A DNA stretch of 64,000 nucleotides from Cyclobacteriaceae bacterium. Its GTDB lineage: Bacteria; Bacteroidota; Bacteroidia; Cytophagales; Cyclobacteriaceae. The notes beneath the pieces are model-generated. The model did not search any database and was not told where the DNA came from. It worked only from the letters and a program-made list of their open reading frames with translations. The stretch spans positions 62,001 through 126,000 of the forward strand of contig JAEUUJ010000050.1 of the NCBI GenBank assembly GCA_016786495.1, given 5' to 3'. Positions 8,335-40,056 of the stretch are shown piece by piece. The translations under genes were made by a program, and so were the position numbers. Position 1 is the first letter of the stretch, and every line of letters starts with the position of its first letter.

Positions 8335-8344
8335 AAATGCCGGT

Positions 8345-10041: not shown

Positions 10042-10070
10042 GTTAGTACCTTTAGTGGCGTCCCTGTTCC

Positions 10071-22571: not shown

Positions 22572-22598
22572 TTAAAAAAGCCGCCCGGAGGCGGCTTT
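22572..22598 (-). terminator. Rho-independent terminator of the six-gene minus-strand operon
   Basis: A perfect 9-bp stem AAAGCCGCC / GGCGGCTTT with loop CGGA; read on the minus strand it is followed by a run of T. It lies 29 nt after the stop of the giant surface protein gene. The rest of the 211-nt gap up to terC shows nothing coding. Confidence 0.88.
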
Positions 22599-22626: not shown

Positions 22627-25600
22627 CTAGTGCTTAACCATCACTTTTCGCACCGCCTTGCTTCCGCCAGGGGTTGTGAGTTGGAGCATATAAACACCGT
22701 CGGCCATTGTTTCGGTTGAAACGGCTTTCGTTTTTTCTCCCATCCTGAACTCCGACTGATACACTGTTTTTCCGAATGCATCGATCAGGACAACCGGGGT
22801 AGGCTTAGCGGCCGCTGCCGGCAATTCAATGTTCACCAGTTGATTGGCCGGGTTAGGATATACGTGAATGTTCTTCACATATTCCGGATCTTCCGTGCTG
22901 GTAACCACGTCCGGAGACACTGCCGCATCTAAAAATGCAGCCTGATGAACATTTTTATCACTTCCGCTAATATCTTGAACAAAAACGACAATGGCATCGC
23001 CATCGCGCCGTTGCCAAATTACGGTTGGTACAACGTACGTGCCACCCGGGTCAATGGTGGCATCCAGGATTATTCCTGCGGGAGAAGGCAGCATTTGTTT
23101 GGCTACAAAAACGAACTCTGTACTTCCGCTTGTTGCGAGCAACTCTGGTGAGTTTATGCTTTTTTCAACGATCGTGGTAAACAGATTTAGACCCGAAAGC
23201 GATAGTGGCTGAGAGGTCGTATTCTTGATAGTCGACTTGATTTCCACAACATTATCAACCTTGGTGGCTGTTACTGAAAGCTGAATCTGAGAAGGTGTTA
23301 ATACCCGTTCGTCATAAACATTATCGCGCCAATTTGATATGTCTGTTTGTTTAAAACTCCCATCAATACGAATCGTTGGAGCTTGTGTGATACCATAAAA
23401 TGCAGCACGTGCATTATGCATTTGCGTATTCAGTTCATTTACAGGATCTGGCGTAGGAAACCCTGTATGGTATTGGATTTTGACGATTTCACCAGCTGTT
23501 CCCAAGCTTTCATAATTTGTGGAGTTATGACTACCACTTTGTGGGGTCATCGTTGCATTGGTGAAATTTTCAAGGAGAACCACTCTGCTTCTTTCCCCAA
23601 CAAATACGTTGTCGAACGCAAACCCGTCTCCGCGTGGTTGTGTACTTGAAAAAGCAACCCGGAAGAGAACTTTCGTTTGACCGATCAGCGGGTCCAACTT
23701 GAATGTTGACGTCTTCCAGCCACCATCTTTTCCCGTCCATCCCGCACTGGTTGAAGTTTGATTTCCCGGATTGCTTAATATACCCTGATCATCATACCAA
23801 TTGATACCCTGTCCAACAACTCCCAAGGTTACCCAATCACCATCGGGATTAGCAGGAGATACTAATTCTTCGATATTGCCGGTTGTATTGTACTGAATTA
23901 CAGCACCGTCTGAACCGTATTGATTGTCGGACCAAGTGTCGAATGAAAATACCGGTTTCGCACTACCCGAAAAATCGAAGCATCCACTCATTACCCAGGA
24001 ATTCTCCTGAGCATTGTTTTGGCCCGCGGGATTTGTATCCCATGCGTTGCCGCCAAGGGGTAAGGGATTTATTGTTGATCCGCTCGGAATTCCTAATTGC
24101 CAAGATGAATTGCGTCCGCCCGAGATCCAGCCACCACTGGAAGCAAAACCTTCTGAATATGCCCCTGTGCCGGAAATAGGGGAGTAGGTTGGAACTATAA
24201 ACACAGGTTTGTAGACCGTATCCTTGCAAAGCGTATTTGTTATAACAATCAGGCGCACGGTATCTTTTCCTACTCCGGAATAAGTAAACGATGTTGTCTT
24301 ACCTACCGGGCTACCTGTACCTGTAAGTGCCCCCCCGATTCCAAAATTCCAGTTCCAAGACTGGATCTGAGCGTCAGGAAGATTTTGTGAGGCGCTGAAC
24401 GCGGTTGGTGAACCAAGACAGGCGTTTGTCCAGGTGAAATTAGCATTCGGTAGCGCATTGATTGTAACTGGCTGAGAAGGGCCCTGATAAATACATCCAT
24501 CACTCGTTTCGAACACTGGCCTAATTTGAAAGGTACCGTTGTTTTGATATAAATGGCTCGGATTCTGATATGTGCCAGCTGTTCTCTCCGCTGCTCCTAC
24601 TGGAACGCTGGAGGCATACGTTCCTGGGGGTAATATGACCTGATCACCAAAATCCCAACCTGCAGTTATAATTGATGTCATTGGAGCGCGCACAGTGCTC
24701 GCATTAGTTATCACTACCGGATCGCCTGCGCACACGTTATTCGGAAAGGTAATGTTTGGAACCACCTCATTAACCGAAATGGTAACCGGAGTTGACGTGC
24801 CCCGGCATGAAGTTGCAGGATCCAGATAACTGTAGGTGATATCAAAAGATCCTACCGGTCCGGAGGTTCCCGTGCTTCCCGGGTTAAACTTCCAAATTTT
24901 AGGACTCGTGCCCACCTGAGTTAATCGCGAGTCAACCGCACCATCAATTCTAAAGTAGTCAACTAAAATATTATCAGAATTAGCGGGAACGCCGATGAGA
25001 TCTATTGTTGCGTCACCCATGCAGAACTTTGTCTTCGATAAAATAAGAGAGACAGTAGGCGCGGGGTTCACCCGAACCCACTGATAGGTGACCACATAGT
25101 TAGACCCCTGCGGCACGCCTGCAGTTGGATTGTATACCGAGAATCCGATTGGGAGTTCACCTCCCCAGTAAGCTAATTCGTCTGCATAAGCAGTTGCTCT
25201 TGGATCAAACGTGTTATTAACGGGGGTGATGTTTTGCCACCGCTCAATAGGGTTATTGTGATCGTAGTATACAAACCCATCCAAAAGCCATCCTGTTGGA
25301 TCAACCGAATACTGCATAATCTGATTGATATAAGACTGGTTAACACTTAACCCGGTTGCGGCCAAGTCGTTACTACAGTATGATGAATTTAGCCCCACAA
25401 TTCCAGAGATAATCACTTCAAAGTTTTGAATAAAGTACGATTGACATCCGTTTCCTGCCGTTTGAATCAACGTCACAGGATATGTGCCGGATGACAAAGA
25501 ACTAGGATTGAAGCGATATTCAGGATTAGAAGTAACTCCATTGCCTGTGAAAACGGAACCTGCAGGTATGCTTGAAATTAACTTAACCGGAGCGCTACTT

Positions 25601-28600
25601 ACGTTAAACGTTGTAGTATTCGGGTCCACCTCGGGGTTCCCGGTTAACTCATCGACCGTAAATGTTACAGCTGTATTCTGCTGAGTTGCACTTATTGTTG
25701 TTAAGGTCGTACCTGCTGTTATGCCAGCTATTGATGCGCTTCCACCCAAACGTGTTATGGGCATTGAGATTATCCCAGTTGGGTTGTCAACTTGTGGATG
25801 CGGCGCATAAATTTTTAAACCGCCAATTGTGATCGAATTAACATCGGCTGTGCCTGCTAAATTAAAACTAAATTGGACCACGTTTGCCCCTGGATAAGTA
25901 TAGCCGGAAGGAGTGTTCAGGTCAGTTCCGGAAAGCGACACACCGGTTGTAACGCTTTGATCGAAAACAAATCCTGCCGGGAGAGCTAATGAAAAAGTAT
26001 ACGCCCCGTTGGCTCCAGAAATGCCAGCGGGGTCGGTTTCTGTGATCACGATATTGCCTAATGCCGTAGCTGAAGACGGGTTACCAAAACAAAATACCGG
26101 ATCCGGAGGACTGTCTATATCACACGCAGGGCTGTTGATTGTGATGTTTCCGGTCGCGTCACCTCCCATATCGTCATCATACGCGTCATCCGATGCAATG
26201 AAAGGGTAACTGCCTGAAAGATTTAACCGTAAATCGTTCCATGTAAAGGTTCCTGCTGACAAAAATGGCGTCAGCGTTGTTCCTCCAAATGACGTCAGCG
26301 TTCCCGGGCCGTTCTCTGAAAGTGAAAACTGATCATTTTGATCGACATCGAGATTGTTTAATCCGTCAACCGCTTTCACGATTACTTGAAAATTCTGATT
26401 TATTAATACTGTGGTGGGTAGTGCGGGATTGAATACCAATTTGGTAGCAACAACGTCAATTAAGTTGTTCCCAGGAGCGGTAGCTGTCGAAGCCCATCCG
26501 CCAATGGGAGAGAATCCCGAGCCACTGGTATTGGCTGTTGCTCCTGTGATGGTAATCACGATTTGATCATTATCGGTTACAACATCCATAAAGGTTGCTC
26601 TGACCATCAGGTTACGGACACCATTATCACTGGCCGTGGACACGGGCGAGGAGGGTGTAAAAGTAATGGAAGTTTGATTTGTACCTGTTTGTTCTGTTCC
26701 AGCGATCTCCGTGTCAGTGTCATCATCGAAAAGGGAAATCTGCCTGATATATTCCGGGTGTGTCACTGAAATTGTCAATGAAGTAAGGTTAGTAGTTTTA
26801 TTGTCCAAGTCAGTTCCCGCTCCATCGCGTAATTGAAAACTTGCCAGGCGTGTGCTTTTGCCAAGATCGGTGTTGTCAATCGAGCCAAATTGTCGCGTCC
26901 GGTACGGAATAAGTGTTGTTACACTACCGTTGAGAATTATATCAGAATTCTGTGAGCTGTTAAATGTGTAATTTATCCCGTTAATTGGCAACCCACCTAC
27001 GGTTGCCACGCTACCCGTTACAGTGACATTGGCTTGTGTAAAAGAAGGTTGAATAGCTACCGTAGTTAGCGTTACACCCGGATCTACCGTTGCAACCAAA
27101 AAATAGTTTTTTGTAGTTCCGTTGAGGGTTTCATTTAACCCTGTGATTGCAATTTGAGTTGCCGAAGGTGTAAACGTGAGGCTCCCGATAGTTGTATTGT
27201 CCCCCGCAGTGGTGAAACTGTTATCAGTTGACCGAACGAGTGAGTATGAACCCCATTTGGAGACAGAAGTACTGCTCGTTTGTATATTCAATACGGTGAA
27301 TGTTTGAGATCCGTTTGAACTTGCGGAAAATCCAATAACTGCCTGATTGGTAGTTCCGGCAAATAAAGGTGAAGAAGCAATTCCAGTATTGAGCTGCGCG
27401 AACGTGGCCGTGGCCGCAATGAAACTGTAACTTGTACCGCTAGCTGTTCCTGTACTTCCGCCCGTAGACACGGTAACATTTGCAGCGCCTAATGACGGCT
27501 GAACCGCCGTTGTGGCCCCGGTAACGGCCGGATCAACGTCAACCACGAGGAAGTAGTTTGTTCCCGAAGTGATAACCTGGCTTAAGCCCGTAATAGCAAC
27601 CTGACTTGCCGATGGTGTAAACGTAAGTCCCCCAATGGGCGCAGAGTTGTCACCGGCAGTTGCATAACTTGGATCAGTGGATGTTATTAATCTATAATTG
27701 CTCCATTTTGACGAAGGGGTGCTGCTGAGTTGGACGTTAATCACAGAAACTGTCTGACTGCCACTCGATGTAAGGGAGAACCCGAAAACACCTTGATTGG
27801 AGGTGCCTGCGATCAAAGGCGAACTCGCCAGACCGGTTGAAAGGTTCGCAATGGTCAGTAATGGACTAAAGCTATAAGAGGTGCCAGTGGCAGTTCCAGT
27901 TGCTCCTCCGCCACCTGTAGTTATCGTCACGTTGGCAGCCCCGAGAGACGGTTGTATGGCCATTGTTCCGCCATTTACGGAAGGATCAACGTCAACCACC
28001 AGAAAGTAGTTAGTACCTGAAGTTATGACCTGGCTTAAGCCTGTTATAGCAACCTGGTTTGCTGATGGAGTAAAGGTAAGACCCCCAATAGGAGCTGAGT
28101 TATCTCCGGAAGTCGCGTAGCTCGCGTCCGTGGAGGTAACTAAGCGATAGTTAGTCCACTTAGATGCTGGCGGATTGCTCAATTGAATGTTAATGACTGT
28201 AACGGTTTGACTTCCACCCGAGGTAAGCGAAAATCCAAACACTCCCTGATTGGTACTTCCGGCTGTCAAAGGTGACGCAGCAAGTCCGGTAGAAAGGTTA
28301 GCAATGGTTAGCAGCGGGCCGAAGCTATAGGATGTTCCGGTAGCAGTTCCGTTTGCTATTCCACCTCCTGTTGTGATGGTAACATCGGCTGCCGCAAGCG
28401 AAGGCTGAATCGCAGGGGTAGCTCCGGTAACGGCCGGATCAACATCAACCACCAGAAAGTAGTTAGTACCTGAAGTTATGACCTGGCTTAAGCCGGTAAT
28501 CGCAACCTGACTTGCCGAAGGTGTAAAGGTAAGTCCGCCAATGGCGGCGGAATTATCTCCTGGCGTTGCATAGTTCGCATCAGTTGATGTAATTAACCTG

Positions 28601-29745
28601 TAGTTGGTCCATTTCGATGCCGGTGTGCTGCTAAGGTGAACGTTTAAAACGGTTACCGTTTGGCTTCCGCTGGATGTGAGCGAAAACCCGAAAACGCCCT
28701 GATTCGTTGCGCCCGCCGTGAGGGGAGAAGAGGCCAACCCTGTGGTAAGGTTAGCGATGGTTAACAACGGTGCAAAAGAATAAGTCGTTCCGGTTGCCGT
28801 TCCGGTAAACGTACCCGTGGTAGCGGTTGCATTTGCCGAGCCTAACGAAGGTGTTACGGCAGTAGTGCTTCCATTCACGGCAGCATTTACATCAGCCACT
28901 AAAAAGAAATTTGTTCCGGAGGTTGTTATGCTTTGCGACAAGCCAGTGATTTGTATTTCTGTTGCTGTGGCGTTAAAGGTAAGTCCGCCAATGGGTGCAG
29001 AGTTATCGCCGGTAGTTGCAAAGCTGTTGTCGGTAGATGTAATCAACGACAACGATGACCACTTTCCGACACTTGAGTTGCCAGTTGAAATATTGAGTGT
29101 CGAAAGAGTTTGTGTTCCATTTGACGTTAGTGAAAATCCGAACACGCCCTGAGCTGTTGCGCCCGCCTGAAGAGGAGAGGCCGCGAGGCCGGTCGACAGG
29201 TTAGCAATGGTGGTTTGAGGAGGTGTTAACGTATAGGTTGAGCCGGTAATGGTTGTACCGGTAGTAGTACCGGTTGACACGATTACGCCCGTACTTGCAA
29301 GCGATGGAGTTGTTGAACCGCTCGCAGCGGGAGCAACGTCTACTACAATGAAGAAGTACTCATCGTCAGCAGCTGCTGTCGCACCATCGAAGTTCGATAG
29401 CGGTGCGCCTGTGAAAGAAATGTCGGTAGCAGATATTGTTCCTGTAGTAACCGGAGTTTCGACACCAACACCGCTGAACGTTGCATCGGCTGATTCGTAT
29501 AGCCGTGCATTGGTGAATTTACCCACCGGTGTCGGAGTCATCGCCACAGTGATGGTTGTTACGGTATTGCCACCTCCGCCTGCCTTCGTCAGTTGTACGC
29601 CCAGAATGGCGATGTCGTTTGTGCCGGAGATTTGTGCTGCGCCAGAAAGTCCCCCGGTTGCAGTAGCCATGGTGACTGCCTGGGAGAACGCGGTGGTCGA
29701 CAGTAAAAATAAAAATGAGAATAGGTGAAGTACACGTTTATTCAT
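22627..29745 (-). CDS. Giant repeat-rich cell-surface protein with T9SS sorting domain
   Basis: 2372 residues from ATG 29745, which opens a clean signal peptide (about 1-22, ending AFSQ); the frame is open six codons further to a TTG. Order: a degenerate first repeat (25-175); four close repeats of about 150 residues and a divergent fifth (180-930), each starting TIANLSTGLAxSPL; a Calx-like region; an Ig-like region near 1090-1180; PKD-like domains (about 1666-1840); a jelly-roll/MAM-like domain (about 1854-2049) with many Asn, Gly and Trp; an Omp28-like thioredoxin-type domain (about 2049-2260) starting VVLLENFTNATMTPQ, where the CxxC of the family is absent; and a T9SS type A sorting domain (about 2289-2372) with VYPNPANQ and a Lys/His end. 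It should be secreted by T9SS and anchored on the surface. It ends the minus-strand operon. Confidence 0.88.
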   Translation of the reverse strand: MNKRVLHLFSFLFLLSTTAFSQAVTMATATGGLSGAAQISGTNDIAILGVQLTKAGGGGNTVTTITVAMTPTPVGKFTNARLYESADATFSGVGVETPVTTGTISATDISFTGAPLSNFDGATAAADDEYFFIVVDVAPAASGSTTPSLASTGVIVSTGTTTGTTITGSTYTLTPPQTTIANLSTGLAASPLQAGATAQGVFGFSLTSNGTQTLSTLNISTGNSSVGKWSSLSLITSTDNSFATTGDNSAPIGGLTFNATATEIQITGLSQSITTSGTNFFLVADVNAAVNGSTTAVTPSLGSANATATTGTFTGTATGTTYSFAPLLTIANLTTGLASSPLTAGATNQGVFGFSLTSSGSQTVTVLNVHLSSTPASKWTNYRLITSTDANYATPGDNSAAIGGLTFTPSASQVAITGLSQVITSGTNYFLVVDVDPAVTGATPAIQPSLAAADVTITTGGGIANGTATGTSYSFGPLLTIANLSTGLAASPLTAGSTNQGVFGFSLTSGGSQTVTVINIQLSNPPASKWTNYRLVTSTDASYATSGDNSAPIGGLTFTPSANQVAITGLSQVITSGTNYFLVVDVDPSVNGGTMAIQPSLGAANVTITTGGGGATGTATGTSYSFSPLLTIANLSTGLASSPLIAGTSNQGVFGFSLTSSGSQTVSVINVQLSSTPSSKWSNYRLITSTDPSYATAGDNSAPIGGLTFTPSASQVAITGLSQVITSGTNYFLVVDVDPAVTGATTAVQPSLGAANVTVSTGGSTGTASGTSYSFIAATATFAQLNTGIASSPLFAGTTNQAVIGFSASSNGSQTFTVLNIQTSSTSVSKWGSYSLVRSTDNSFTTAGDNTTIGSLTFTPSATQIAITGLNETLNGTTKNYFLVATVDPGVTLTTVAIQPSFTQANVTVTGSVATVGGLPINGINYTFNSSQNSDIILNGSVTTLIPYRTRQFGSIDNTDLGKSTRLASFQLRDGAGTDLDNKTTNLTSLTISVTHPEYIRQISLFDDDTDTEIAGTEQTGTNQTSITFTPSSPVSTASDNGVRNLMVRATFMDVVTDNDQIVITITGATANTSGSGFSPIGGWASTATAPGNNLIDVVATKLVFNPALPTTVLINQNFQVIVKAVDGLNNLDVDQNDQFSLSENGPGTLTSFGGTTLTPFLSAGTFTWNDLRLNLSGSYPFIASDDAYDDDMGGDATGNITINSPACDIDSPPDPVFCFGNPSSATALGNIVITETDPAGISGANGAYTFSLALPAGFVFDQSVTTGVSLSGTDLNTPSGYTYPGANVVQFSFNLAGTADVNSITIGGLKIYAPHPQVDNPTGIISMPITRLGGSASIAGITAGTTLTTISATQQNTAVTFTVDELTGNPEVDPNTTTFNVSSAPVKLISSIPAGSVFTGNGVTSNPEYRFNPSSLSSGTYPVTLIQTAGNGCQSYFIQNFEVIISGIVGLNSSYCSNDLAATGLSVNQSYINQIMQYSVDPTGWLLDGFVYYDHNNPIERWQNITPVNNTFDPRATAYADELAYWGGELPIGFSVYNPTAGVPQGSNYVVTYQWVRVNPAPTVSLILSKTKFCMGDATIDLIGVPANSDNILVDYFRIDGAVDSRLTQVGTSPKIWKFNPGSTGTSGPVGSFDITYSYLDPATSCRGTSTPVTISVNEVVPNITFPNNVCAGDPVVITNASTVRAPMTSIITAGWDFGDQVILPPGTYASSVPVGAAERTAGTYQNPSHLYQNNGTFQIRPVFETSDGCIYQGPSQPVTINALPNANFTWTNACLGSPTAFSASQNLPDAQIQSWNWNFGIGGALTGTGSPVGKTTSFTYSGVGKDTVRLIVITNTLCKDTVYKPVFIVPTYSPISGTGAYSEGFASSGGWISGGRNSSWQLGIPSGSTINPLPLGGNAWDTNPAGQNNAQENSWVMSGCFDFSGSAKPVFSFDTWSDNQYGSDGAVIQYNTTGNIEELVSPANPDGDWVTLGVVGQGINWYDDQGILSNPGNQTSTSAGWTGKDGGWKTSTFKLDPLIGQTKVLFRVAFSSTQPRGDGFAFDNVFVGERSRVVLLENFTNATMTPQSGSHNSTNYESLGTAGEIVKIQYHTGFPTPDPVNELNTQMHNARAAFYGITQAPTIRIDGSFKQTDISNWRDNVYDERVLTPSQIQLSVTATKVDNVVEIKSTIKNTTSQPLSLSGLNLFTTIVEKSINSPELLATSGSTEFVFVAKQMLPSPAGIILDATIDPGGTYVVPTVIWQRRDGDAIVVFVQDISGSDKNVHQAAFLDAAVSPDVVTSTEDPEYVKNIHVYPNPANQLVNIELPAAAAKPTPVVLIDAFGKTVYQSEFRMGEKTKAVSTETMADGVYMLQLTTPGGSKAVRKVMVKH
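27000..29210. repeat. Five tandem ~450-bp coding repeats in the surface-protein gene
   Basis: The TIANLSTG start recurs at about 29205, 28755, 28300, 27850 and, diverged, at about 27400, giving a period near 450 bp. The middle copies share long stretches of near-identical DNA, for example around CCTGGCTTAAGCC and AAGTAGTT, so they are candidates for recombination, copy-number change and assembly collapse. They are coding repeats in phase with protein domains. Confidence 0.85.
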
Positions 29746-29795
29746 AACGAATAGTGATTTCAAATAGTGGTTATAAAGTAATAAGTGACAATAGC

Positions 29796-31136
29796 CTACT
29801 TGGCTATCTCACCTTTATTGTCAGTTTTAACTAAGAAGATTGACGAGAAGCCGCCAACGGTATTCGTTCCGCAAATTAAAAGCTCACCGGAAGATAATTC
29901 ACGAATAGCACATGGCACCTGATCACCGGAACCGCCCATCGTCTTCTGCCACTCCGGGTGAAAAGATCCGTCTAACTTGATCAACCATAAATCTTTACCG
30001 TTACCGGACGACAATTCGGTATATCCCGCTATTACATAGCCACCATCTTTGGTCGACGTAATCGTTTCACCACCATCTTGTACTATCGATTCGTTTTCAT
30101 TCTCAAGCGGGATAATTCCGCTACGTCCGTCAAAAAACAATAGCGTTTCTTCTTCAATTTCTCCGGATCCGTTTACATGAACGAAAAATAAATTGCTCTT
30201 AGAGCCATTTGTCTCAATACTGTAGCGTCCAGTCACGCCAAATCCGAACGCAGGATCTTTTGCTGTGGCTGTTATGTCGCCGGGTAAAAATAGCTGATCG
30301 GTATTTTCACCGAGCAAGTCGAAACTCATAAATGTAGATTGTTCTGCAGCCACAGGAATGCTAATATAGGATTTATTGAACCCTCCTTGGTCGACAGCAA
30401 GAGCTGCAGACCAGACGATTTTCCCATTTCCATTTACATTCGCGTATATAAGGCTTTTTGCATTTTGGTATGTGCGCCCATATAGATCATAGTCAATTGA
30501 CCAAACAGGACTGACCTGATTGTTAAGCTGCATTAGGAAAGTTTTTTGAGGGGCTGCTTGCTGGCCAACAATTCCTTCTTTAAATCCTCCTAATACGAAA
30601 ACCTTTCCGTCACTTGTGATAGTGAGCGCTTGTCCGAAAAAATCCTGTTTGACTGGATGCTCTGGGCTGATGTCACTGTTGTCCGATCGAAAATAAGTGT
30701 TCATTGCTGGATAATCAAGATTAGCGTTCAAATGGAGTACCCGCATTGAGGCGATCTCCGTATTAGCGGCCTGCTCTGCCAGTGGATCAATTTTAATACT
30801 GTCGCCTACAATCACGTAACCATCCACAACTCCGGCTCCGGAAATAATGGGCTTTATAGCTTTTCCACTGCCGCCTGGAAAGCGATGTGGCTCCCCAACC
30901 TGATTACCGTTCTCGTCTGTTACGATCACAACCGTAACTATAAGGGTGTCGTTCACCTGCATATTCCCCAGAATTACGTAACCGCCCGGAATGCTCTCTA
31001 CTGAGGTTGCAGAAAGGGTGTAAGCTCCATTGAAAAACTTAATGAAAGTTTTCCGGTTAGAAGGGTCTGCATCTTCAAGATTTGAACAACCAATCATGGC
31101 ACTGAGTAAAAAAAGCGGAAGTAAAATCTTTCTCAT
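29796..31136 (-). CDS. Lipoprotein with predicted beta-propeller repeats
   Basis: A 446-residue lipoprotein: signal peptide with lipobox LSAMIGC (Cys about 17). The body contains several spaced blocks of the form GGYVIxG followed by polar strands (GGYVILGNMQV, DGYVIVGDS, DGKVFVLGGF, DGGYVIAGYTEL, SGELLICGTNT), a pattern of bacterial propeller-like lipoproteins. It should sit in the outer membrane facing periplasm or surface. It overlaps the upstream barrel gene by ATGA and comes 50 nt before the giant surface protein, so it may help anchor or display one of them; that is inference. Confidence 0.75.
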   Translation of the reverse strand: MRKILLPLFLLSAMIGCSNLEDADPSNRKTFIKFFNGAYTLSATSVESIPGGYVILGNMQVNDTLIVTVVIVTDENGNQVGEPHRFPGGSGKAIKPIISGAGVVDGYVIVGDSIKIDPLAEQAANTEIASMRVLHLNANLDYPAMNTYFRSDNSDISPEHPVKQDFFGQALTITSDGKVFVLGGFKEGIVGQQAAPQKTFLMQLNNQVSPVWSIDYDLYGRTYQNAKSLIYANVNGNGKIVWSAALAVDQGGFNKSYISIPVAAEQSTFMSFDLLGENTDQLFLPGDITATAKDPAFGFGVTGRYSIETNGSKSNLFFVHVNGSGEIEEETLLFFDGRSGIIPLENENESIVQDGGETITSTKDGGYVIAGYTELSSGNGKDLWLIKLDGSFHPEWQKTMGGSGDQVPCAIRELSSGELLICGTNTVGGFSSIFLVKTDNKGEIAK

Positions 31137-32227
31137 TTTTTGCGCTTGAGTTTTTTAGGATTGAAAATATTCTGAATGTAGCCTGCTGAGATTCCGAGAG
31201 AAGAAACTTTAAAGACAGGATCTGCATAATTCAATTCCCAGGTGATCTCCTGATTTTTATATGCGGACTCCTTTGAACTAATCTTTGTAAGCCCGTGTAG
31301 ATACCTGATTTCCGACACAATGTAACCTCCACCAACGCGTAATTTAATACCAACCGCCGCCATCAAACTGAGGTTGATTGAACTGCGGGAAACCTTAAAA
31401 TCAAATGACTTTTCCTGGACAGAGCTTTGTTCGTCCCGAACCTGTTCACCCGTGATTTTGGCCGACAACAGGTAGTCTATGGCTACGCCCCCCGATACAT
31501 ACGGATTAAACTTTTCGTTAAACTTCGAGTTGTTCTTAAATGGCTTATACTGAACGGCCAGCGGAACACTCAGCCATGTTTGTGATTCGATCGCATCGGT
31601 TTCGTTTTTAAAACTTACATCCGGGTTGCCGTCTTCTGAAAAACGAGTGAACACCTGATTGAGACCAAATCGCTTTTGACTATACAGTACTTCTCCGTGG
31701 AGATTCAGTCGCTCACTCAGCGGAATGTCACCGAACAATCCGAAGTTGATTCCGATCATAGGCCGGTACTTGCTCTCGCCCGACAGATCCCCTGCTGTTA
31801 CATTTTCCTTAACATTTGGTCTTGCGGCATCAACCCCCAGTTTTCCACCAATCCGGAAAATGGGTAGCGTTCTAAACGTACCATACAACGCTACAAATTC
31901 GGCAGGATCAACCGCCTCATTGATTTCGAAGTAAGGGTCCGTACGAAGAATGTTGAGCATAGCCTCATCTGCTTTCTCGGGTTCTTCCAGGTAGATGTAG
32001 CTCAAACAAAGAATTTTGTACGCCTCCACCTTATCTTGCTTGATGGTCATTTTTGAAATAACGTCATCGCTGAGCTGCGCAGGAATTTCATGCAACCTCC
32101 CCTGCTCGTATGTTGCCCGGGCCAGGCGCAATGTTTGCGCAGGCGTGGGCGTGGTTTGCGCTAAACTGCTGACTGAAATAGTAACAAATAGGGCTATGGC
32201 TAAAAGTCTTTTCATCGACCGGATCAT
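31133..32227 (-). CDS. Outer-membrane beta-barrel protein with N-terminal helical repeat region
   Basis: A 364-residue exported protein. A signal peptide (ending SLAQ) is followed by a helical segment (about 25-115) that looks like TPR-type repeats (YEQGRLHEIPAQL, KVEAYKILCLSYIYLEEPEKADEAM), then a C-terminal part (about 125-350) of alternating amphipathic strands such as IGINFGLFGDIPLSERLNLHGEVLYSQKR split by turns, typical of PorT-like/OmpA-like barrels. Start and stop overlap both neighbours (ATGA at each end), so translation is coupled to the STAND gene and the lipoprotein. Predicted place is the outer membrane. The helical part would be on the periplasmic side. Confidence 0.78.
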   Translation of the reverse strand: MIRSMKRLLAIALFVTISVSSLAQTTPTPAQTLRLARATYEQGRLHEIPAQLSDDVISKMTIKQDKVEAYKILCLSYIYLEEPEKADEAMLNILRTDPYFEINEAVDPAEFVALYGTFRTLPIFRIGGKLGVDAARPNVKENVTAGDLSGESKYRPMIGINFGLFGDIPLSERLNLHGEVLYSQKRFGLNQVFTRFSEDGNPDVSFKNETDAIESQTWLSVPLAVQYKPFKNNSKFNEKFNPYVSGGVAIDYLLSAKITGEQVRDEQSSVQEKSFDFKVSRSSINLSLMAAVGIKLRVGGGYIVSEIRYLHGLTKISSKESAYKNQEITWELNYADPVFKVSSLGISAGYIQNIFNPKKLKRKK

Positions 32228-35200
32228 TTAATATTAGAACATGTTTTTTCCTTCGGCATTTCGTCAAGTTTTCCAACGTGCGTTATCCACTCTTCATCGG
32301 TCATGTTCCGTTTGATAAACTCAGCGCACAGAATGTTTGCCATGGTGTTGATTTTTGTCGGATACGCCCAGATACTTTCCTCGTTTGCGGTAAAGATTCT
32401 ATCCTCCGTAGCGCTTCGTTTGATAACCTGTCGTGCACTTTGTAAACCGACCATGAGTTGTTCATCGTTCGGAGTAAATGCGATAGCCCACACCCAGTCG
32501 CCATGACCTTTGAGTTGTATGGGTTGAACGTTGAGCTTGAGTAAATTCCAAAGCCTTACGCTTTTGTCTTTACTCGCGGAAGCGAAGAAACTCGCACCAT
32601 GGTTATACTTAATCTGTTCAATAGGCCCTTCGTGACCAGGTAAATTTTTAATAACCGTGTTGCTCACCGTGCTTACGATGCGCAACAAGCCATCTGTATC
32701 ACCAGTAATTAACTGTTCGGCTTTTGGATGCCATGCAACGGCAGTGAGGTGGGTATTGGCCCGGGTTCTCAGGTTGATCTGAGTAACCGCATAGTTGTTC
32801 GTAATATCCCAAATGTAGAGGATACCATCTTCGCCTGCGCCAGCCAGCTTCCTGCCATCGTAACTTAAGTCTATCGAGTTGATCTTAACAGGCGGTTTGA
32901 TAACCTCCTTAGCCGTATTCAGATCGGAATATTTAATGCTGCGACCGGCATTGTCACGAACGTATACACCTTTTCCATCCGGTGTGAAGTGAACGTTTTC
33001 AATGGAATTCGTGAAACCGTACACTTTCTTCGGAGTTGATACATTTTTCAGGTCGTACACATTGATGAAGTTATTTTGTTCATCCGGTGTGTATAATCCG
33101 GCAGCAACCAAAACCGTTTCTGACGGATTTACGTCCATGGAATACACCTGGTAGTTCGGATTGCCGAGTTTATCCACCAGCACTTCAGCCGGCCATTGAC
33201 CATTAACGTGTTTCCACTTAATGATTTTGCCATCGCTGCCACCGGAGTAGATGTTATCATCCTTCGCAAGGGTGATCAACGCGCGTGCTGCGCCCAGCTC
33301 ATGACCGATGAGACTCTTCGTAAGCCCATGGTCGCGCGTTCGCAGTGCGGCCAGCAGCCCGTTGTAGATATCATCATCATACTCTTCACCTTCATACTTG
33401 GTGTTGAACTGATAAGCCTGTTGTGCCAGCAGCGATTGTAACTCAGGTTCACTGCTTAACTCTTTCGACTTAAGCGCCATCGCCTTTGCCTGTGACAGGT
33501 AGCTTCTTCGTGTAGCGTCCGCCCGAGCGATGTTAGCCTGCCTTTCGTTTTCCTTGGCCTGCAACTCATTCGATTTTGCAATTTTCGCGTTTTGTTCAGC
33601 AAAACCTTTTTGCTTAAGCGCTTCAGCCTCCTGCTTCTTGGCTTCTGCCTCACTCAAAATCGCCAATTGCTTCTGGCGGTCAGCCTCTTCCTTTGCTGCC
33701 ACGGCAGCAATTCTTTGTCTGTCGGCTTCCTCTTTAGCTGCAACGGCAGCAATTCTTTGCTTATCAGCTTCTACGCGCAGCTTATCAGATTCAACTCGCC
33801 TTTCTTCAGCAAGCTTAAAGTTCCTGTCCGCTTCGAGTTTCTGCACGAACGCGTAAATCAGAAAGAGAATGGAAATGATTGTTGCGGTAGCAAGTACGAG
33901 CGCAGTTCTTCTCGCGCGCTGAAGCTTGCGCTTCTGCTCGAGTTCCTTGATGCGCTGCTCGGTTTCGAATTCTTTCTTCGAATATTCGAGGAACACCAGC
34001 GTACGTTCGAATGCAGGATGGTATCGTTGACCCCAAACCAACGTGGGCTTGTGTTTCGCCTGCCAGTTCAATGCCAATTGCAGATCCGGTGGCCTCCAAA
34101 GTCCGGCCTTGCCTACCTGATACATGGAGGCGGCTTCCGCCAGGCGGATATACATCTGCACGGCTTCTGCTTCATCGTCAACCCAGTTCTTCAAGCGTAC
34201 CCAGATACGCATCAAACTTTCGTGCGAGATATCGACCATTGATTTCGATGAAATCGGAGTACCGAACGCTGGAGTCAACAACGATCTGCCCGGCTCCCGG
34301 AACTTTTCAATAACCTCTGTTACCTCTTCTTCTGAGCAATCGGCAATCGCTGCAATCTCGTTCAAACGTGTCGGACGTCTGATACCGAAGTTCTCACCGC
34401 GCTTCTCGGTAATGGCTTTAAACAGAATTTCGCAAATGCGTTTCTGATCATCGGTCAGTTCATCGAAGGCTTCGTTCGCGTGCATCGACAACGCTTCCGC
34501 CATCGTACCGATCGCTTCGTAGTGCTTTAAGTCAACCTGCTCTTCTTCATAATCGCGGTATAACGACCAGTAGCTCCAGGTACGCATCAATGCGTGCTGC
34601 AGAATTGGAAGCTGATCCGGGTTGTCACCCAGGTCGTTTAACAACTGCTGCACAAGACGCGGGGTAATTTTAGCTCCACCTACGGCCACCGGTCCTTCAA
34701 TGGCTCTGCGTTTTTGTTCGCGCGTCAACTGCGGGATCAGGTAGTGGCTATCGTTAATCTTTCGGGTTAGTTCGGGGAACTGTGCGCAATCTCCGATAAA
34801 ATCGGAACGCATGGTGATTGCTACATAAATCGGAGAGTCAGGATAATTGATTGCTTCGATCAGCAGGTTAACGAAGGCCAGCGTCTCGTTAACGGAGTTT
34901 GGATCGGTGCTGTCTTTAAAGCGGAACAATTCCTCAAACTGGTCGACCAGGATCAGGTAGTTTACATCGCCTGATCTGCGTGATTGCTCCACAGCTTCCA
35001 CCAGCCCTAAGGAACTGCTTCGCAACAAAGTCGAGAAGATGGTGCGTTTGATTTTTTTCTCTTCCGGATCGGCATCCAGGTATTCTTTGTTGTTTTTCAA
35101 CAACGACTCCGCCAGGTTGTCGATCGGCCCTGCACCGGGGCGGGTTACTACAACCTCCCAGTTAGGACTCGCATCGGTGAGGAAGCCACCGTACAGAATC

Positions 35201-35406
35201 GGCAGTACGCCGCAATAAATGAATGAAGATTTACCGCTACCGCTGGGTCCGATAACACCTACGAACCGGCTTTTCGAAAGCTTGAGAAGAACCTCATCGC
35301 TTTGTCCTTCGCGCCCGAAGAACAAGTGGCTCTCTTCAATTTTAAACGGACGTAACCCGGGGAAGGGGTTTAAGGTCGATACCTTTTCGTCAACTTGCTG
35401 TGCCAT
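32224..35406 (-). CDS. nSTAND1-type NTPase with membrane anchor, coiled coil and WD40 propeller
   Basis: A 1060-residue signal-transduction ATPase. The N-terminus NPFPGLRPFKIEESHLFFGRE is the nSTAND1 entry motif; Walker A is GPSGSGKSS (about 53-61), Walker B is YLILVDQFEEL (about 155), followed by the STAND helical and winged-helix parts (to about 480). A basic stretch KRKLQRARR precedes one membrane helix (about 498-520). Then comes a Lys/Glu/Ala coiled coil (about 520-640) and seven WD40 blades (about 698-1040; GGSDGKIIKW, GEDGILYIWD, SKDKSVRLWN). The positive-inside rule puts the NTPase in the cytoplasm and the WD40 propeller in the periplasm. It is 4 nt after the TIR-like gene. Confidence 0.85.
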   Translation of the reverse strand: MAQQVDEKVSTLNPFPGLRPFKIEESHLFFGREGQSDEVLLKLSKSRFVGVIGPSGSGKSSFIYCGVLPILYGGFLTDASPNWEVVVTRPGAGPIDNLAESLLKNNKEYLDADPEEKKIKRTIFSTLLRSSSLGLVEAVEQSRRSGDVNYLILVDQFEELFRFKDSTDPNSVNETLAFVNLLIEAINYPDSPIYVAITMRSDFIGDCAQFPELTRKINDSHYLIPQLTREQKRRAIEGPVAVGGAKITPRLVQQLLNDLGDNPDQLPILQHALMRTWSYWSLYRDYEEEQVDLKHYEAIGTMAEALSMHANEAFDELTDDQKRICEILFKAITEKRGENFGIRRPTRLNEIAAIADCSEEEVTEVIEKFREPGRSLLTPAFGTPISSKSMVDISHESLMRIWVRLKNWVDDEAEAVQMYIRLAEAASMYQVGKAGLWRPPDLQLALNWQAKHKPTLVWGQRYHPAFERTLVFLEYSKKEFETEQRIKELEQKRKLQRARRTALVLATATIISILFLIYAFVQKLEADRNFKLAEERRVESDKLRVEADKQRIAAVAAKEEADRQRIAAVAAKEEADRQKQLAILSEAEAKKQEAEALKQKGFAEQNAKIAKSNELQAKENERQANIARADATRRSYLSQAKAMALKSKELSSEPELQSLLAQQAYQFNTKYEGEEYDDDIYNGLLAALRTRDHGLTKSLIGHELGAARALITLAKDDNIYSGGSDGKIIKWKHVNGQWPAEVLVDKLGNPNYQVYSMDVNPSETVLVAAGLYTPDEQNNFINVYDLKNVSTPKKVYGFTNSIENVHFTPDGKGVYVRDNAGRSIKYSDLNTAKEVIKPPVKINSIDLSYDGRKLAGAGEDGILYIWDITNNYAVTQINLRTRANTHLTAVAWHPKAEQLITGDTDGLLRIVSTVSNTVIKNLPGHEGPIEQIKYNHGASFFASASKDKSVRLWNLLKLNVQPIQLKGHGDWVWAIAFTPNDEQLMVGLQSARQVIKRSATEDRIFTANEESIWAYPTKINTMANILCAEFIKRNMTDEEWITHVGKLDEMPKEKTCSNIK

Positions 35407-35410
35407 AATG

Positions 35411-36853
35411 TTACGCGTTAAATTCTGCTAATAAAGACTTAATCGATTTTTCTGAATCGCGGAGATCGCTTTCCACGATCCGTACGTTCTGATTTTTAAA
35501 TGCATCGAGGTTAATGGCTGCACCGGGTGTGGTGAATACCGCCTTTCCTTTGATTGGTTTTTTTCTTCCAAAGCCGGGAGCTTTCAACAGGTCGAGCACT
35601 TTCATGCGTACCCACTGATCGTTCACTTTGCCTTTGTAGATGATCGCTGCATCGAAGTTTCTGAGGTTCTCAATATGCTTCTGACGCAAGTCGAGCAGTT
35701 CACCTTCAAATTCAGGAATCAATACGTTGTAACCTGCTTTTTGAATCGCTTCAATCAGTGGTTTCACATCGTTGTGATCCACGCGGTCGTGTACCAGGTA
35801 AATCGATTTGCCACCGGTGTCTTCCAATACACGTTTTTCGTGCGTATCGAGAAGTTCTTCCCGAACAATATTCTTGAAATCTTCCAGTGGTGTCTGTAAA
35901 ATTTCAGCGCCTTCCTGGGCATCGGTATCGCGCTTGATGTTATCGATGAATGCCTTCTGACGTTCGCTTGCGTTGTTGAGGGTGGGAGAGATCCAAATGA
36001 GGCGTGAGAACTGATCTTTTCCAACCTTCTGACTTTTCTCTGCGGCAAACTTGTTTTGCAGATCAACAATCGAGCGATCCGCACCATCCGGAATTTCACC
36101 GTATGCACTTCCGATCAGGTGAATGGAGAGACTTGCATCTTCAATGTCTCTGCGTACAATTTTTTCGAGATCGCTCGCAAAGCCAGGCAGCGTTTGATTC
36201 GGCAGTACGATGTATCCATGCCGCTGAAGCTCGCGCTTGATAATGTTCCGCTGAACAGAAAGATCATGTCCTGTTTCCGCGAGGTAAATCGTTTTACGCT
36301 TGTAAATGTTCTTAACCTCGGATTTCGATGCGCCATCCCGGAGCAGCACCAGCGTGTCGAAAATATCGTATGCCAGATCGACCATCTTCATCCAGTACTG
36401 GCGTTCCGCTTCGTTGCTGAAGTAGTCGGCATATTCGCGTACCTCGCCCGATTCAGTATCGAGTTGGTACATCTCGTACCCAATCAGTTCGCGCAGGCGC
36501 GGAGGTTGTTCCATGACTGACAGCGGAGCTTTGAAAACCTTGAACACGCGATTGCGCGTTTTACCGGAAGCTTCCGTGGCTTTGAAAAATGCTTCGAGGT
36601 TATCAAGCGATTGTCCTGACTTGATGAAATCCTGCGACAGCAACGTCACCGCCACTGCAGCATTGTCGAGTTTGGGCGAAGCCATGTTATCGAACTCACT
36701 CTTGAGCAGGATTCTTGGTTTCTCGCCCAGAACCTGCGTGAGCATAAGCTCCAGAAAACGCTTGAACTGAGTTACCCAACCGGCTTGTCCGCCCGGGGCT
36801 TTTTCATTGTCGCGGTCAGCAAATAATACAAGTACGTCTACTTCAAAATTCAT
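35411..36853 (-). CDS. Protein of three TIR-like (Rossmann-type) domains
   Basis: A 480-residue cytoplasmic protein with three similar alpha/beta units: about residues 4-140 (VDVLVLFADRDN start, then AVAVTLLSQDFIKSG), about 187-330 (KTIYLAETGHDLSVQRNIIKREL start, then LSIHLIGSAYGE) and about 345-480 (KSIYLVHDRVDHNDVKPLIEAI start, then FDAAIIYKGKVND). Each has a first strand, a helix carrying a partner site and a third strand ending in a Ser or Gly, as in TIR and TIR-like domains. The catalytic WCxxE motif of TIR NADases is not seen in any unit; unit 1 keeps only LSxDFxxS. It is more likely a binding/adaptor protein than an NADase. It lies 11 nt after the transporter-fold gene and 4 nt before the STAND gene. 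Confidence 0.65.
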   Translation of the reverse strand: MNFEVDVLVLFADRDNEKAPGGQAGWVTQFKRFLELMLTQVLGEKPRILLKSEFDNMASPKLDNAAVAVTLLSQDFIKSGQSLDNLEAFFKATEASGKTRNRVFKVFKAPLSVMEQPPRLRELIGYEMYQLDTESGEVREYADYFSNEAERQYWMKMVDLAYDIFDTLVLLRDGASKSEVKNIYKRKTIYLAETGHDLSVQRNIIKRELQRHGYIVLPNQTLPGFASDLEKIVRRDIEDASLSIHLIGSAYGEIPDGADRSIVDLQNKFAAEKSQKVGKDQFSRLIWISPTLNNASERQKAFIDNIKRDTDAQEGAEILQTPLEDFKNIVREELLDTHEKRVLEDTGGKSIYLVHDRVDHNDVKPLIEAIQKAGYNVLIPEFEGELLDLRQKHIENLRNFDAAIIYKGKVNDQWVRMKVLDLLKAPGFGRKKPIKGKAVFTTPGAAINLDAFKNQNVRIVESDLRDSEKSIKSLLAEFNA

Positions 36854-36864
36854 TCTTTCTAGGG

Positions 36865-39800
36865 TTATAGTTCAGTGGTCAGCACGTTTGCTTTCGCCTG
36901 GGTGCTGGTAATATTCTTAATAAGTCCTTCAACAAGTTCGTGATGGTTGGCCATCACGAAATAGAAATCGGCCAGATTGATTTTAAATACAATCGACCGT
37001 TGGGTAGCCTCAATGCTCTTGGCCGGTACGGCCAGACCATTCTGGAAAATGTCGCCATATACACTGCCGGCCTTAAGCGATTTGATTACGGTAGCATCAT
37101 CTTTCAGGATAATTTCTCCGAGTGCTACGATAATGATTGGCATACCTTGTTCTTTTGCATCGAAGGTTAGTTTTTGACCTTCATTCAGATCGATCGGTGA
37201 AATCTTGTCGAACAAGTCGGCCAGCAACACACCGTTGATGTTTTTGAACTCGGGAAGCTGCTTGAGGAACAGCACCATTTCAATACCGAGGAAGAAACCA
37301 TCATCCAGGCCGTCCAGCAGTTGGTTATTCTCGATGGATGAATCGAGGAATTTTTTGTCGCGCACCGGCAGACGTTCGGAGATAACTTTATAGAAGTTTT
37401 TGTCTTTGTTATAGATCACCCATGCGGCAGTTTCCTGAAGCATTTTGTCCTGGTTGAACATCTGTGCGATCAAACCACGGCTCACGCGGAAATCTTTCAG
37501 GTAAGCCGATACGTACACCGCACATACTTTCGTCCAGCGGTTGTTCATGTTGAAGTCACGGTTCAGGATATAGTTGATTACCTGAATCGGATTGTAGCTT
37601 TCGCGCGGGAAATAAATCTGCAGCTGCTCAAGCTTCTGTTCTACCGGAATGTCATCGAAGAGCGGGAACAACTTCGGCTTAAGATCTTTCTCTACGAACA
37701 AATCCATCAATTCAAGCGCGTAGGCCACACCGTTCGGATCTCCCGATTCAATGTTCTCCCGCACCAGCTGCACGGCTTCCGGATCGTACAAAATCGAAAG
37801 CAACATGGTGATGTGATCGAAGTTCGAACGAATCTCTTCCCGGATCGCATCGCGCAGCAATGCATATTCCGCTTCGTCCGGCAACTCGCTGAGGGCAGCT
37901 AGGTTCCAGATGGTTTTGCCAAGTTCGGTTTCCAGGAGTTCTGTCACTTCCTGTGCCTGACGACCGGTTGCCCGGTAGTTGATGTATCGCAAGGAATACA
38001 GAATCTGCTTTACGATACGTTTATCCGGATAATCGGCTTTCTTCCAGAGAAGCGCGAGGGCGTCATCGCCACCGATACGGCCCATGATCTGAACAATGCG
38101 AAGCATGACCAGATCGGTTTGACCCGATTTGTGAAAGGATGCCTCCAATACAGGCAATGCAGCGGGACCGGCTTCAATCAGCGCAGCTGCTGCATCGTGA
38201 CCATACGTAGGCGAGGAGAGAAGTTCCACTAATACCGACCAGGTTTCCGGCCGTTTTACTTTACGCGCGGTAATCAGCGCTTCGTGACGAACGTGTACGC
38301 TTACGTCACGCAATAATTCCAGCAGAATAAAGATGGTACGCTGGCTGATGAGTTTACGCAAAAGTTTTGCGGCAAGAATACGATCGGCCGGTTTTACAGA
38401 CTTGCTGAGTTTCATCAGCTTGTCGGGCGAAATCGACAGCAAGTCACTGTCTTCGGCTTCACCTTGTGCGCTTTTCGCCAGATTACGGATCTCCGGATTT
38501 TTGATGGTTTCTTTGTCGATTCCCAGCTCCTGAATCTTCTCAACGGCAAACGATTTTACTTTTGTGTACTCGCTTTCGGTAAGACGGATCACCGCGTTTT
38601 CAAAAAGTGTTGGTTCCAGTTTCTCCATCAGCTTCAGGCCGTAGATCACCTTATCTTCGGCTGTGCTGTTGATTTCTTTTTCAAGCACTTTGTCGACTGT
38701 GTATTCGCGGTCGATTTTGTGATCGACTTTGGCTTTATTCTTAATGAGTGTTGTTTGCAGTGTTTCGCGGTAGATTCCGTACAGCTTGCCTGCAACAAAG
38801 TACCAGGCCACAATCAACGGGATGGCAAACACGGTCATGTAGATCAAATCGACCAGATTAAATTTTTGGATCCCCAGGATTAATGCACCCGCTACGAGCG
38901 TGGCAAAACCCGTAACCACACCTTCCAGCTTGGTTTGCACATCAATCTTGATATTGGTTTCAATCGGGAGCAGGTAGAGCTTGAACGAAGGTTCGTCAAG
39001 TGATTCTTTTACCGACAACACAAACAGCTTGCTCATCGCGATCATGATAAAGAATATGATAAACGATGAACTGGCGGTGGTGTAACCGAATGAAAGACCG
39101 ATGGTAAGGGCAACTATGGTAAAAATGCCAATCAGGATGGGGTTAACCAGTACTGAAGTTTTCAAACCGTAGTCAGCAATCACGCGGTCGGCTGCGAATG
39201 TTTGGAACAAAAAGCTGAAGATCACAACCGTTGCCTCAAAGTATGAAAGGAACTTGGGCAGGGCACCCGGCTTGTCGCGGAAGAATTCGGTTGACGCATT
39301 CAGAAACGAATAATCCACGAATGTCAGCGCCACCATCGAAGCGATGATGAAGAGCGACAAAAACAATACGTATTTGTTTTTAAAGAATGAAACGGTGGAA
39401 AGTTTTTGGTTGAACTGCTTTTCGCTTTTCAGCGACCAGCTCTCATCCGCAAAACGGCTGGAGAGAACAATAAACAGGATCGTAAAAATGATGATACCGA
39501 ACAGACTGATTGTGAACAGATCTTTTACCCCGATATAGTCAAGCAAGATCGGAATGGTGAAGAAGGAGATCAACGAGGCAAGCAACGCACCCTGGTCAAC
39601 ACTTCCCAACAAGCGTTTCGACTGCTTTACGTTAAAGAGACGGTTAAACGTTCCCCAGAAAACCAGCAAAACAACAAGCGTAAAGGGCGCGATCTGGGCG
39701 TAAGAGAAGAACCGGAGATAGAGGTCATCCATCGCTACATATTCATGGCCAAACTCAATGAAGGCGGCAATAATCGTGATGGTGATTAAGCTCAGGATGG

Positions 39801-40056
39801 CCAGCAGGCGAAACGGGATGCGGTTTTGAAGGAAATTGTACGTGAGGGTCGCAAAGAGGCCGAAAATTCCCGATAATACGAAAGCTTCCGGTAACCTTTG
39901 GCTTCCATTGTGAATGCCCAGAAACTGGGTTTGTGCGGCTACGCTAAACGTTGCCAGAAAGGCTCCCATGAAGAAGCTCATAATCAGCAACAACCCTACG
40001 CGACCGGTCTCGCCCTCCTCAACAGAGAAGACCTTTTTGAGTAGACTTTCTTTCAT
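36865..40056 (-). CDS. Transporter-fold (Npt/MFS-like) membrane protein fused to HEAT repeats and a cyclic-nucleotide-binding-like domain
   Basis: 1063 residues. The first ~440 hold twelve hydrophobic segments arranged like the ATP:ADP antiporter (Npt1/Npt2) branch of the MFS superfamily. Residues ~490-860 are helical HEAT-like repeats (RILAAKLLRKLISQRTIFILLELL, VHVRHEALITARKV and similar). The last ~150 residues have the jelly-roll pattern of a cNMP-binding domain (LKAGSVYGDIF, then TQRSIVFKINLADFYFVMANH), but the phosphate-binding Glu and Arg of active domains are not both present, so nucleotide binding is doubtful. It is the first gene of the six-gene operon, 95 nt downstream of a 19-bp palindrome. 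A pure transport role is unlikely; a membrane receptor role is inference. Confidence 0.8.
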   Translation of the reverse strand: MKESLLKKVFSVEEGETGRVGLLLIMSFFMGAFLATFSVAAQTQFLGIHNGSQRLPEAFVLSGIFGLFATLTYNFLQNRIPFRLLAILSLITITIIAAFIEFGHEYVAMDDLYLRFFSYAQIAPFTLVVLLVFWGTFNRLFNVKQSKRLLGSVDQGALLASLISFFTIPILLDYIGVKDLFTISLFGIIIFTILFIVLSSRFADESWSLKSEKQFNQKLSTVSFFKNKYVLFLSLFIIASMVALTFVDYSFLNASTEFFRDKPGALPKFLSYFEATVVIFSFLFQTFAADRVIADYGLKTSVLVNPILIGIFTIVALTIGLSFGYTTASSSFIIFFIMIAMSKLFVLSVKESLDEPSFKLYLLPIETNIKIDVQTKLEGVVTGFATLVAGALILGIQKFNLVDLIYMTVFAIPLIVAWYFVAGKLYGIYRETLQTTLIKNKAKVDHKIDREYTVDKVLEKEINSTAEDKVIYGLKLMEKLEPTLFENAVIRLTESEYTKVKSFAVEKIQELGIDKETIKNPEIRNLAKSAQGEAEDSDLLSISPDKLMKLSKSVKPADRILAAKLLRKLISQRTIFILLELLRDVSVHVRHEALITARKVKRPETWSVLVELLSSPTYGHDAAAALIEAGPAALPVLEASFHKSGQTDLVMLRIVQIMGRIGGDDALALLWKKADYPDKRIVKQILYSLRYINYRATGRQAQEVTELLETELGKTIWNLAALSELPDEAEYALLRDAIREEIRSNFDHITMLLSILYDPEAVQLVRENIESGDPNGVAYALELMDLFVEKDLKPKLFPLFDDIPVEQKLEQLQIYFPRESYNPIQVINYILNRDFNMNNRWTKVCAVYVSAYLKDFRVSRGLIAQMFNQDKMLQETAAWVIYNKDKNFYKVISERLPVRDKKFLDSSIENNQLLDGLDDGFFLGIEMVLFLKQLPEFKNINGVLLADLFDKISPIDLNEGQKLTFDAKEQGMPIIIVALGEIILKDDATVIKSLKAGSVYGDIFQNGLAVPAKSIEATQRSIVFKINLADFYFVMANHHELVEGLIKNITSTQAKANVLTTEL

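Follow-up and report, generated by a model that had tools for sequence, protein, structure and literature searches.

Composition and block-wise evolution of a six-gene nSTAND operon predicted to cross the cell envelope in Cytophagales

What could six adjacent genes do together whose predicted products occupy every compartment from the cytoplasm to the cell surface? This question is raised by an operon in a 64,000-nucleotide stretch (the window) of contig JAEUUJ010000050.1, from the Cyclobacteriaceae bacterium assembly GCA_016786495.1. Our analysis showed that the order of its genes is conserved across Cytophagales. The operon evolves as three blocks, with seams within two genes, near each membrane crossing, a pattern that is new here. 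On balance, we think it probable that it encodes a STAND relay across the envelope whose periplasmic and surface modules can be exchanged, working most likely from the outside in.

The six open reading frames (ORFs) all lie on the minus strand and are tightly packed, with spacings along the operon of 11 nt, 4 nt, an ATGA overlap, a second ATGA overlap and 50 nt. In gene order, with their segments, they are as follows.

36865-40056, minus: P0006 gene (ORF); NTT-like membrane domain (residues ~1-440), HEAT domain (~545-900), degenerate cyclic-nucleotide-binding-domain-like (cNBD-like) region (~920-1063)
35411-36853, minus: P0005 gene (ORF); predicted cytosolic protein with three TIR/NDT-clan domains (residues ~1-172, 186-336, 348-480)
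32224-35406, minus: P0004 gene (ORF); nSTAND1, membrane helix, coiled coil, WD40
33913-35406, minus: P0004 inner half, residues 1-498; predicted cytosolic nSTAND1 NTPase (Pfam nSTAND1, E 1e-95) and conserved linker
33847-33903, minus: P0004 membrane helix, residues ~502-520; positive-inside bias, identity drop
32224-33843, minus: P0004 outer half, residues 522-1060; Ala-heptad coiled coil, WD40 propeller, two-Cys C-terminal tail
31133-32227, minus: P0003 gene (ORF); TPR-barrel protein
31880-32158, minus: P0003 predicted periplasmic TPR-like half, residues ~24-116; partial, weak TssQ-family match; follows the WD40 tree
31133-31879, minus: P0003 predicted outer-membrane beta-barrel half, residues ~117-364; OMP_b-brl_2; follows the lipoprotein tree
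29796-31136, minus: P0002 gene; beta-propeller lipoprotein, by lipobox and propeller profile match
22627-29745, minus: P0001 gene; giant surface protein with ~150-residue repeats, PKD and a type A sorting domain of the type IX secretion system (T9SS)
22574-22596 (about), minus: terminator-like hairpin and T-run, read directly in the sequence

These ORFs and spacings are as an earlier note on this DNA had given them, and so is the terminator. The hairpin is GC-rich, is followed by T's and lies directly past the last stop of the operon; it was absent from the list of an automatic terminator scan and was seen by direct reading. P0001 starts at an ATG at 29745, while the listed ORF begins at a TTG at 29763. 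Profile searches also recovered the domains of the proposed compartment series, from the transporter fold with HEAT and cNBD through STAND, membrane helix and WD40 to barrel, lipoprotein and T9SS giant.

That the six genes belong together is borne out by their order in relatives. Among the best 80 of 92 loci found with P0005, all from Cytophagales, the first five genes (NTT-TIR-STAND-barrel-lipoprotein) are complete and in order in 63; the remaining 17 have a contig end or a split ORF, and none is rearranged. Median gaps between consecutive genes are 13, 5, 6 and 1 nt (68, 67, 66 and 65 loci), and the gene after the lipoprotein lies on the same strand in all 66 loci where it is visible. The kept order and the small gaps indicate an operon association beyond chance.

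Conservation is uneven along the operon. The alignments (A1-A5) held 53 of 79, 54 of 68, 39 of 66, 41 of 68 and 31 of 68 relatives, near-duplicates being dropped by eye, plus the window protein. Median identity between the window and its relatives in P0004 is 86% for nSTAND, 93% for the linker, 43% for the membrane helix, 36% for the coiled coil and 47% for WD40; it is 62% for the TPR half, 35% for the barrel and 30% for the lipoprotein. In pairwise distances among the 53 nearer loci, nSTAND correlates with TIR and NTT at 0.46-0.66, with its own WD40 at 0.22 and with the lipoprotein at 0.14, and the barrel correlates with the lipoprotein at 0.84.

For the 74 loci whose five proteins are all close to full length, every segment was tested against the trees built from the other segments, the fit being given as a difference in log-likelihood (dlogL). 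For nSTAND, dlogL was 125-177 on the NTT and TIR trees versus 829 on the WD40 tree. The TPR half preferred the WD40 tree (122) to those of the barrel (321), the lipoprotein (418) and the inner segments (312-332), and the barrel preferred the lipoprotein tree (166) to the WD40 (836) and inner trees (1374-1509); the lipoprotein likewise fitted best on the barrel tree. Inner segments scored 102-328 on each other's trees, and in a control the two parts of NTT differed by only 140-164. Within the STAND gene the halves misfit each other by 829 and 1070, and within the barrel gene by 321 (91 sites) and 894. Approximately unbiased (AU) tests agreed with these preferences. As the inner tree of one AU set included nSTAND, the independent test of nSTAND is that on NTT and TIR alone, which gave 102 versus 772 on the WD40-side tree. 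Over all 74 loci, distances correlate at 0.88 for WD40 and TPR and at 0.62 for TPR and barrel. The same tree preferences were found in the 12 assemblies not labelled as metagenome-assembled genomes (MAGs), which speaks against chimeric bins. The first 1300 residues of the giant, in 49 loci, track the barrel (rho 0.59) and the lipoprotein (0.55) and hardly NTT (0.20, or 0.04 with the lipoprotein held fixed).

Block 1 thus comprises NTT, TIR and the part of the STAND gene that encodes the cytoplasmic half; block 2, the WD40 half of that gene and, from the barrel gene, the periplasmic TPR half; and block 3, the barrel half and the lipoprotein, with the giant attached more weakly. The first seam lies in the membrane helix of P0004 or the coiled coil that follows, and the second at the start of the barrel half of P0003. 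A recombination anchor, that is, low synonymous divergence beside the seam, was hinted at by pair plots and was rejected, as a 69-sequence profile showed no dip at codons 441-500.

Single pairs of loci illustrate the pattern. There are pairs in which nSTAND is 98% identical and the outer parts 24-56%, and the reverse occurs too. Loci L091 and L092 share 94-99% in NTT, TIR and nSTAND, and 48% in the coiled coil, 47% in WD40, 56% in TPR, 24% in the barrel and 25% in the lipoprotein; their nucleotide identity is 96% over codons 481-500 and drops to 71% over codons 501-520. For L060 and L065 the values are 89% (NTT), 91% (TIR) and 98% (nSTAND), then 47, 53, 51, 44 and 39% for the outer parts and 41% for the giant, with 96% in the flanking TerC, 72% in DinB and 68% in the upstream QueA. 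A pair of two non-MAG assemblies (L043/L048) has 78% in NTT, 81% in TIR and 93% in nSTAND, 25-58% outside, 34% in the giant and 89% in TerC. In the Fulvivirga pair L099/L100, WD40 (79%) and TPR (84%) are alike but the barrel (34%) and lipoprotein (35%) are not, so the change falls within the barrel gene.

TIR was matched in 41 of 59 relatives; at the level of the order 42 of 194 genomes had a match, and at that of the phylum 5 of 395 (four in the same family, the fifth partial). The operon is therefore mostly confined to Cytophagales and patchy inside the order. NTT was found in 63 of the same 194 genomes, including all 42 with TIR. A further 19 loci around TIR matches, mostly from other genera or families, held five genes in 13 cases (one with an extra 650-residue gene), four in 2 and TIR alone in 4. 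Dispersal of the genes in relatives, which the earlier note had taken as a sign against a single unit, was seen in part only: NTT lies apart from TIR-STAND-barrel-lipoprotein in one genome (G456; L137, L138), and TIR-only copies exist, as do TIR-less ones, in the window's own genome (L115) and five others (L144, L146-L149); the order is otherwise kept.

The second copy in the window's own genome (G000:C21:1-19000, ~1980-10800) runs NTT-STAND-barrel-lipoprotein, after which comes a further ORF that the contig end truncates. The STAND protein of this copy is 42% identical to that of the window. Three loci (L131, L153, L154) have an additional gene of 650-677 residues between NTT and TIR, and in L154 (G045) the TIR gene contains a stop in frame and its reading frame is shortened. 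Two TIR genes without the operon (L116, L117) are followed in both cases by similar-sized small genes, possibly a separate context for the TIR protein.

The features of P0004 are consistent with a protein that crosses the inner membrane once. It belongs to nSTAND1 and has its P-loop and Walker B acids intact; the P-loop and D155..E158 E159 do not vary among the 32 sequences compared. A phmmer search with the nSTAND region gave weak P-loop matches only. Around the strong hydrophobic segment, the 20 residues before contain on average 7.1 K+R and those after 3.5 (85 sequences). Beyond the helix, Ala is found at seven-residue intervals, with at least 15 unbroken heptads in 53 of 85, and a coiled coil of such length could span much of the periplasm. 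All 85 sequences have Cys1027 and Cys1056 in the C-terminus, which fits an oxidising periplasm for the outer half.

A compartment-wise shared history would be expected if parts of the same compartment must fit each other and change is tolerated only at the links that cross membranes. On this ground we propose that the operon may encode a single complex reaching from the cell interior to the surface. Inside, the membrane-anchored nSTAND1 ATPase would be joined by the NTT-type transporter, by way of its HEAT platform, and by the triple TIR/NDT-like protein. Within the periplasm, the STAND coiled coil and WD40 propeller would contact the TPR half of the outer-membrane protein; outside, the barrel, the propeller lipoprotein and the giant adhesin-like T9SS protein would make up the surface end. 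Both the periplasmic end and that at the surface would be exchangeable modules, the cytosolic switch being constant. Binding by the surface module would then signal to WD40, switch the ATPase and change the state of its TIR-like and NTT-like partners. STAND proteins usually sense through C-terminal repeats (a passage on APAF-1 in PMC7159879), and for this reason we prefer the outside-in direction. Of the sensing or defence apparatus suggested in the earlier note, the chain through every compartment is supported, by a block-wise history that changes at two membranes.

Several points weigh against this proposal. The contacts between the proteins are ones that we infer from shared history; the direction and the output, too, are inferred. 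Most of the closest pairs are unswapped: of the 13 whose inner parts are at least 90% identical, 12 keep at least 55% outside, and 1 falls below 55%. The correlation between WD40 and the inner parts still reaches 0.81-0.87 (nSTAND-WD40, 0.84) when all 74 loci are taken. The seams are not fully sharp, the coiled coil fitting the inner trees about as well as it does that of WD40; the barrel and lipoprotein tree is rejected by the outer half of STAND too, by 1461; nSTAND is not fully congruent with NTT and TIR (dlogL 102, AU p 0.001, Shimodaira-Hasegawa (SH) p 0.18); and some SH p values in the non-MAG set exceed 0.05. TIR is missing from the second copy in several genomes and NTT can sit elsewhere, so neither is indispensable.

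At the surface end, P0003 has a signal peptide (by eye), the TPR-like region and the OMP_b-brl_2 barrel, and a PDB sequence search with the barrel gave no match. The lipobox Cys of P0002 is present in 80 of 82 aligned rows, with a gap in 2. The acidic residues after it, considered as a possible signal for lipoprotein export to the surface, are modest in number (mean 1.36 in six positions; 50 sequences, including a few wrong lipobox picks). By profile P0002 is a putative beta-propeller (match to CylK, E 1.7e-14; DUF5122 in 7 of 40 members), while the window protein on its own has no Pfam match. P0001 carries PKD and Por_Secre_tail, which marks it as a T9SS substrate by its C-terminal sorting domain. 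Giants were complete in 20 genomes, 9 more stretches and the window (L170 was masked and dropped); they measure 1530-5043 residues, all 29 scanned, the window's included, carry Por_Secre_tail, and their Ig, fn3 and PKD domains are of the adhesin type, suited to binding. Residues ~189-940 of P0001 (window 23300-29200) contain at least five repeats of ~150 residues. Even in the window's two nearest relatives only parts of this giant are shared: its N-terminal part and extreme C-terminus are kept, and the stretch that separates these differs strongly.

The chain of parts is equally compatible with an inside-out machine, in which ATP hydrolysis by nSTAND would assemble, anchor or move the giant through the coiled coil, in adhesion or gliding; the giant is an adhesin-type T9SS substrate, and several named carriers belong to gliding genera. 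We nevertheless regard this as unlikely. STAND ATPases are switches, not motors. No T9SS or gliding core component was found in the operon above cut-off by Pfam and profile searches, the matches of P0003 to PorT/SprT and PorG being far below it, and the operon is restricted to the order and patchy, whereas T9SS and gliding are distributed more widely.

The inner partners suggest a link to nucleotides. P0006 has the NTT fold and NTT sequence homology, and appears to be a putative transporter with HEAT and a cNBD-like domain. The phosphate-binding cassette of a cNBD has a Glu-Arg ligand pair as its motif; in our alignment this pair was not found, Glu being replaced by Asp and Arg having no counterpart. 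P0005, which had been described as three TIR-like domains, consists of three Rossmann domains of the TIR/NDT kind (AlphaFold2 model, mean predicted local distance difference test score 78.4, predicted template modelling score 0.47), so the description holds loosely and the TIR fold is present: domain 1 is TIR_2, domain 2 is DUF4062, with cytidine monophosphate (CMP) N-glycosidases as nearest folds, and domain 3 is nearest to an NDT and a TIR-STING. Such parts would suit nucleotide scavenging or sensing, the surface capturing extracellular nucleotides, NTT moving them and the NDT/N-glycosidase-like domains binding or processing them. This seems improbable to us, as the operon has no TonB-dependent receptor, the giant bears adhesin-type domains, the HEAT platform (median identity of the window to relatives, 70%) is better kept than the transport domain (50%), and the active-site residues of domain 3 appear lost.

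Could there have been no exchange at all, the outer parts being merely fast-evolving, or old paralogues differentially lost? They are indeed less conserved, and several genomes hold one diverged second copy. This account is, however, quite improbable. Outer identity exceeds inner by more than 5 points in 17 of 2701 pairs, and L038/L066 share 57% in NTT and 67% in TIR (TerC, 66%) as against 87% in WD40, 89% in TPR, 78% in the barrel and 75% in the lipoprotein, which fast evolution could not produce. In L060/L065 the near-identical TerC stands beside the diverged giant, and the operon keeps the same chromosomal slot. It is flanked in the window by housekeeping genes, QueA on one side and a TerC-DinB-hydrolase-SRAP-GcpE run on the other. 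In 49 of the 66 loci that could be tested (14 more were too short), QueA lies no more than 3 kb upstream. Of 29 downstream stretches, 20 have the TerC side; it is missing from nine (L168-L176), of which eight are from more distant genomes and L168 is from G033. Among ten neighbours scanned with Pfam (three without a match), no mobile or defence gene was found.

TIR_2 and DUF4062 were found in 54 of 54 aligned P0005 members. An hhalign profile alignment to 13 TIR_2 domains, itself weak (probability 86.8%), places the canonical catalytic Glu ([W/C]xxE) at residue 85, where the window has Asn and 3 of 99 sequences have Glu. E87, two residues on, is invariant in 54 of 54 near relatives (A1) and at first seemed plausible as the catalytic Glu of an NADase; it was rejected, as the canonical Glu aligns to residue 85 and other families lose E87. 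In these families domain 1 may be degenerate or shortened, and domains 2 and 3 are steadier. A TIR-NADase death effector is thus unlikely, and P0005 is more likely a regulator or scaffold. The search with PF13676 gave no match in the window's own genome because the TIR domain lies below that model's reach, and a TIR profile against PDB sequences gave one interferon match, which was judged chance. Outside the order, a distant TIR gene (L152, G154:C49:1-19000) with a canonical-looking SEWCKRE may be active; it precedes an nSTAND gene matching the STAND profile only at 19-523, and two further genes follow.

An anti-phage or conflict system, with nSTAND sensing an invader and the TIR-like protein killing by NAD+ loss, is very improbable. 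In its favour, conflict systems repeatedly contain STAND and TIR domains (passages of PMC7159879, PMC8195603 and PMC10907252), and the outer parts diversify. Against it, PADLOC was uninformative (five of six proteins, P0002-P0006: no defence model, and only mad3/mad8 P-loop fragments, two weak), the flanks are housekeeping, the canonical Glu position is variable, other families have domain 1 in a degenerate or shortened form, and TIR-less copies exist. The defence role offered in the earlier note is accordingly not retained.

If the trans-envelope relay is real, it couples the outer membrane and the T9SS surface with a STAND switch; the main known setting of STAND switches is intracellular immunity-like systems. 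The uncharacterised NTT-HEAT-cNBD family would also gain a set of biological partners. More tentatively, this might be a new surface-sensing machine, an envelope-crossing STAND ATPase reading the surface giant through interchangeable modules of the periplasm and outer membrane, so that recognition changes (kin, prey, substrate or phage) and the intracellular switch is kept; it is just as speculative to see in it a bacterial analogue of a receptor with a constant inside and a variable outside. Compartment-wise exchange predicts contacts among nSTAND, TIR and NTT, between WD40 and TPR, and among barrel, lipoprotein and giant, which are directly testable in culturable carriers, for example Chryseolinea, Ohtaekwangia or Fulvivirga.

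As the earlier note had supposed, no described system of this composition was found in the open-access literature (subscription papers and preprints lay outside its coverage). Partial likenesses exist. TonB-dependent cell-surface signalling of the FecA-FecR-FecI type also has an outer-membrane part, a periplasmic contact, a single-pass inner-membrane protein and a cytosolic output, but this operon has no TonB receptor, anti-sigma or sigma factor, and an ATPase switch instead. With T9SS it shares its last gene, which encodes a predicted substrate, although profile searches found no core component of that system in the operon. P0006 has the architecture of the NTT-HEAT-cNBD fusions, which are widespread in bacteria and functionally uncharacterised according to passages of Major et al. 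(2017, PMC5381601); these passages do not mention the STAND, TIR and outer-membrane partners present here. The nSTAND1 and TIR conflict systems, as far as passages of PMC7159879, PMC8195603 and PMC10907252 describe them, likewise combine an nSTAND NTPase bearing C-terminal repeats with TIR-clan partners and diversified sensor ends. Unlike them, the present operon has a sensor end that is predicted to be periplasmic and coupled to outer-membrane and T9SS parts, and it sits in a fixed chromosomal slot, where it appears to diversify by block exchange.

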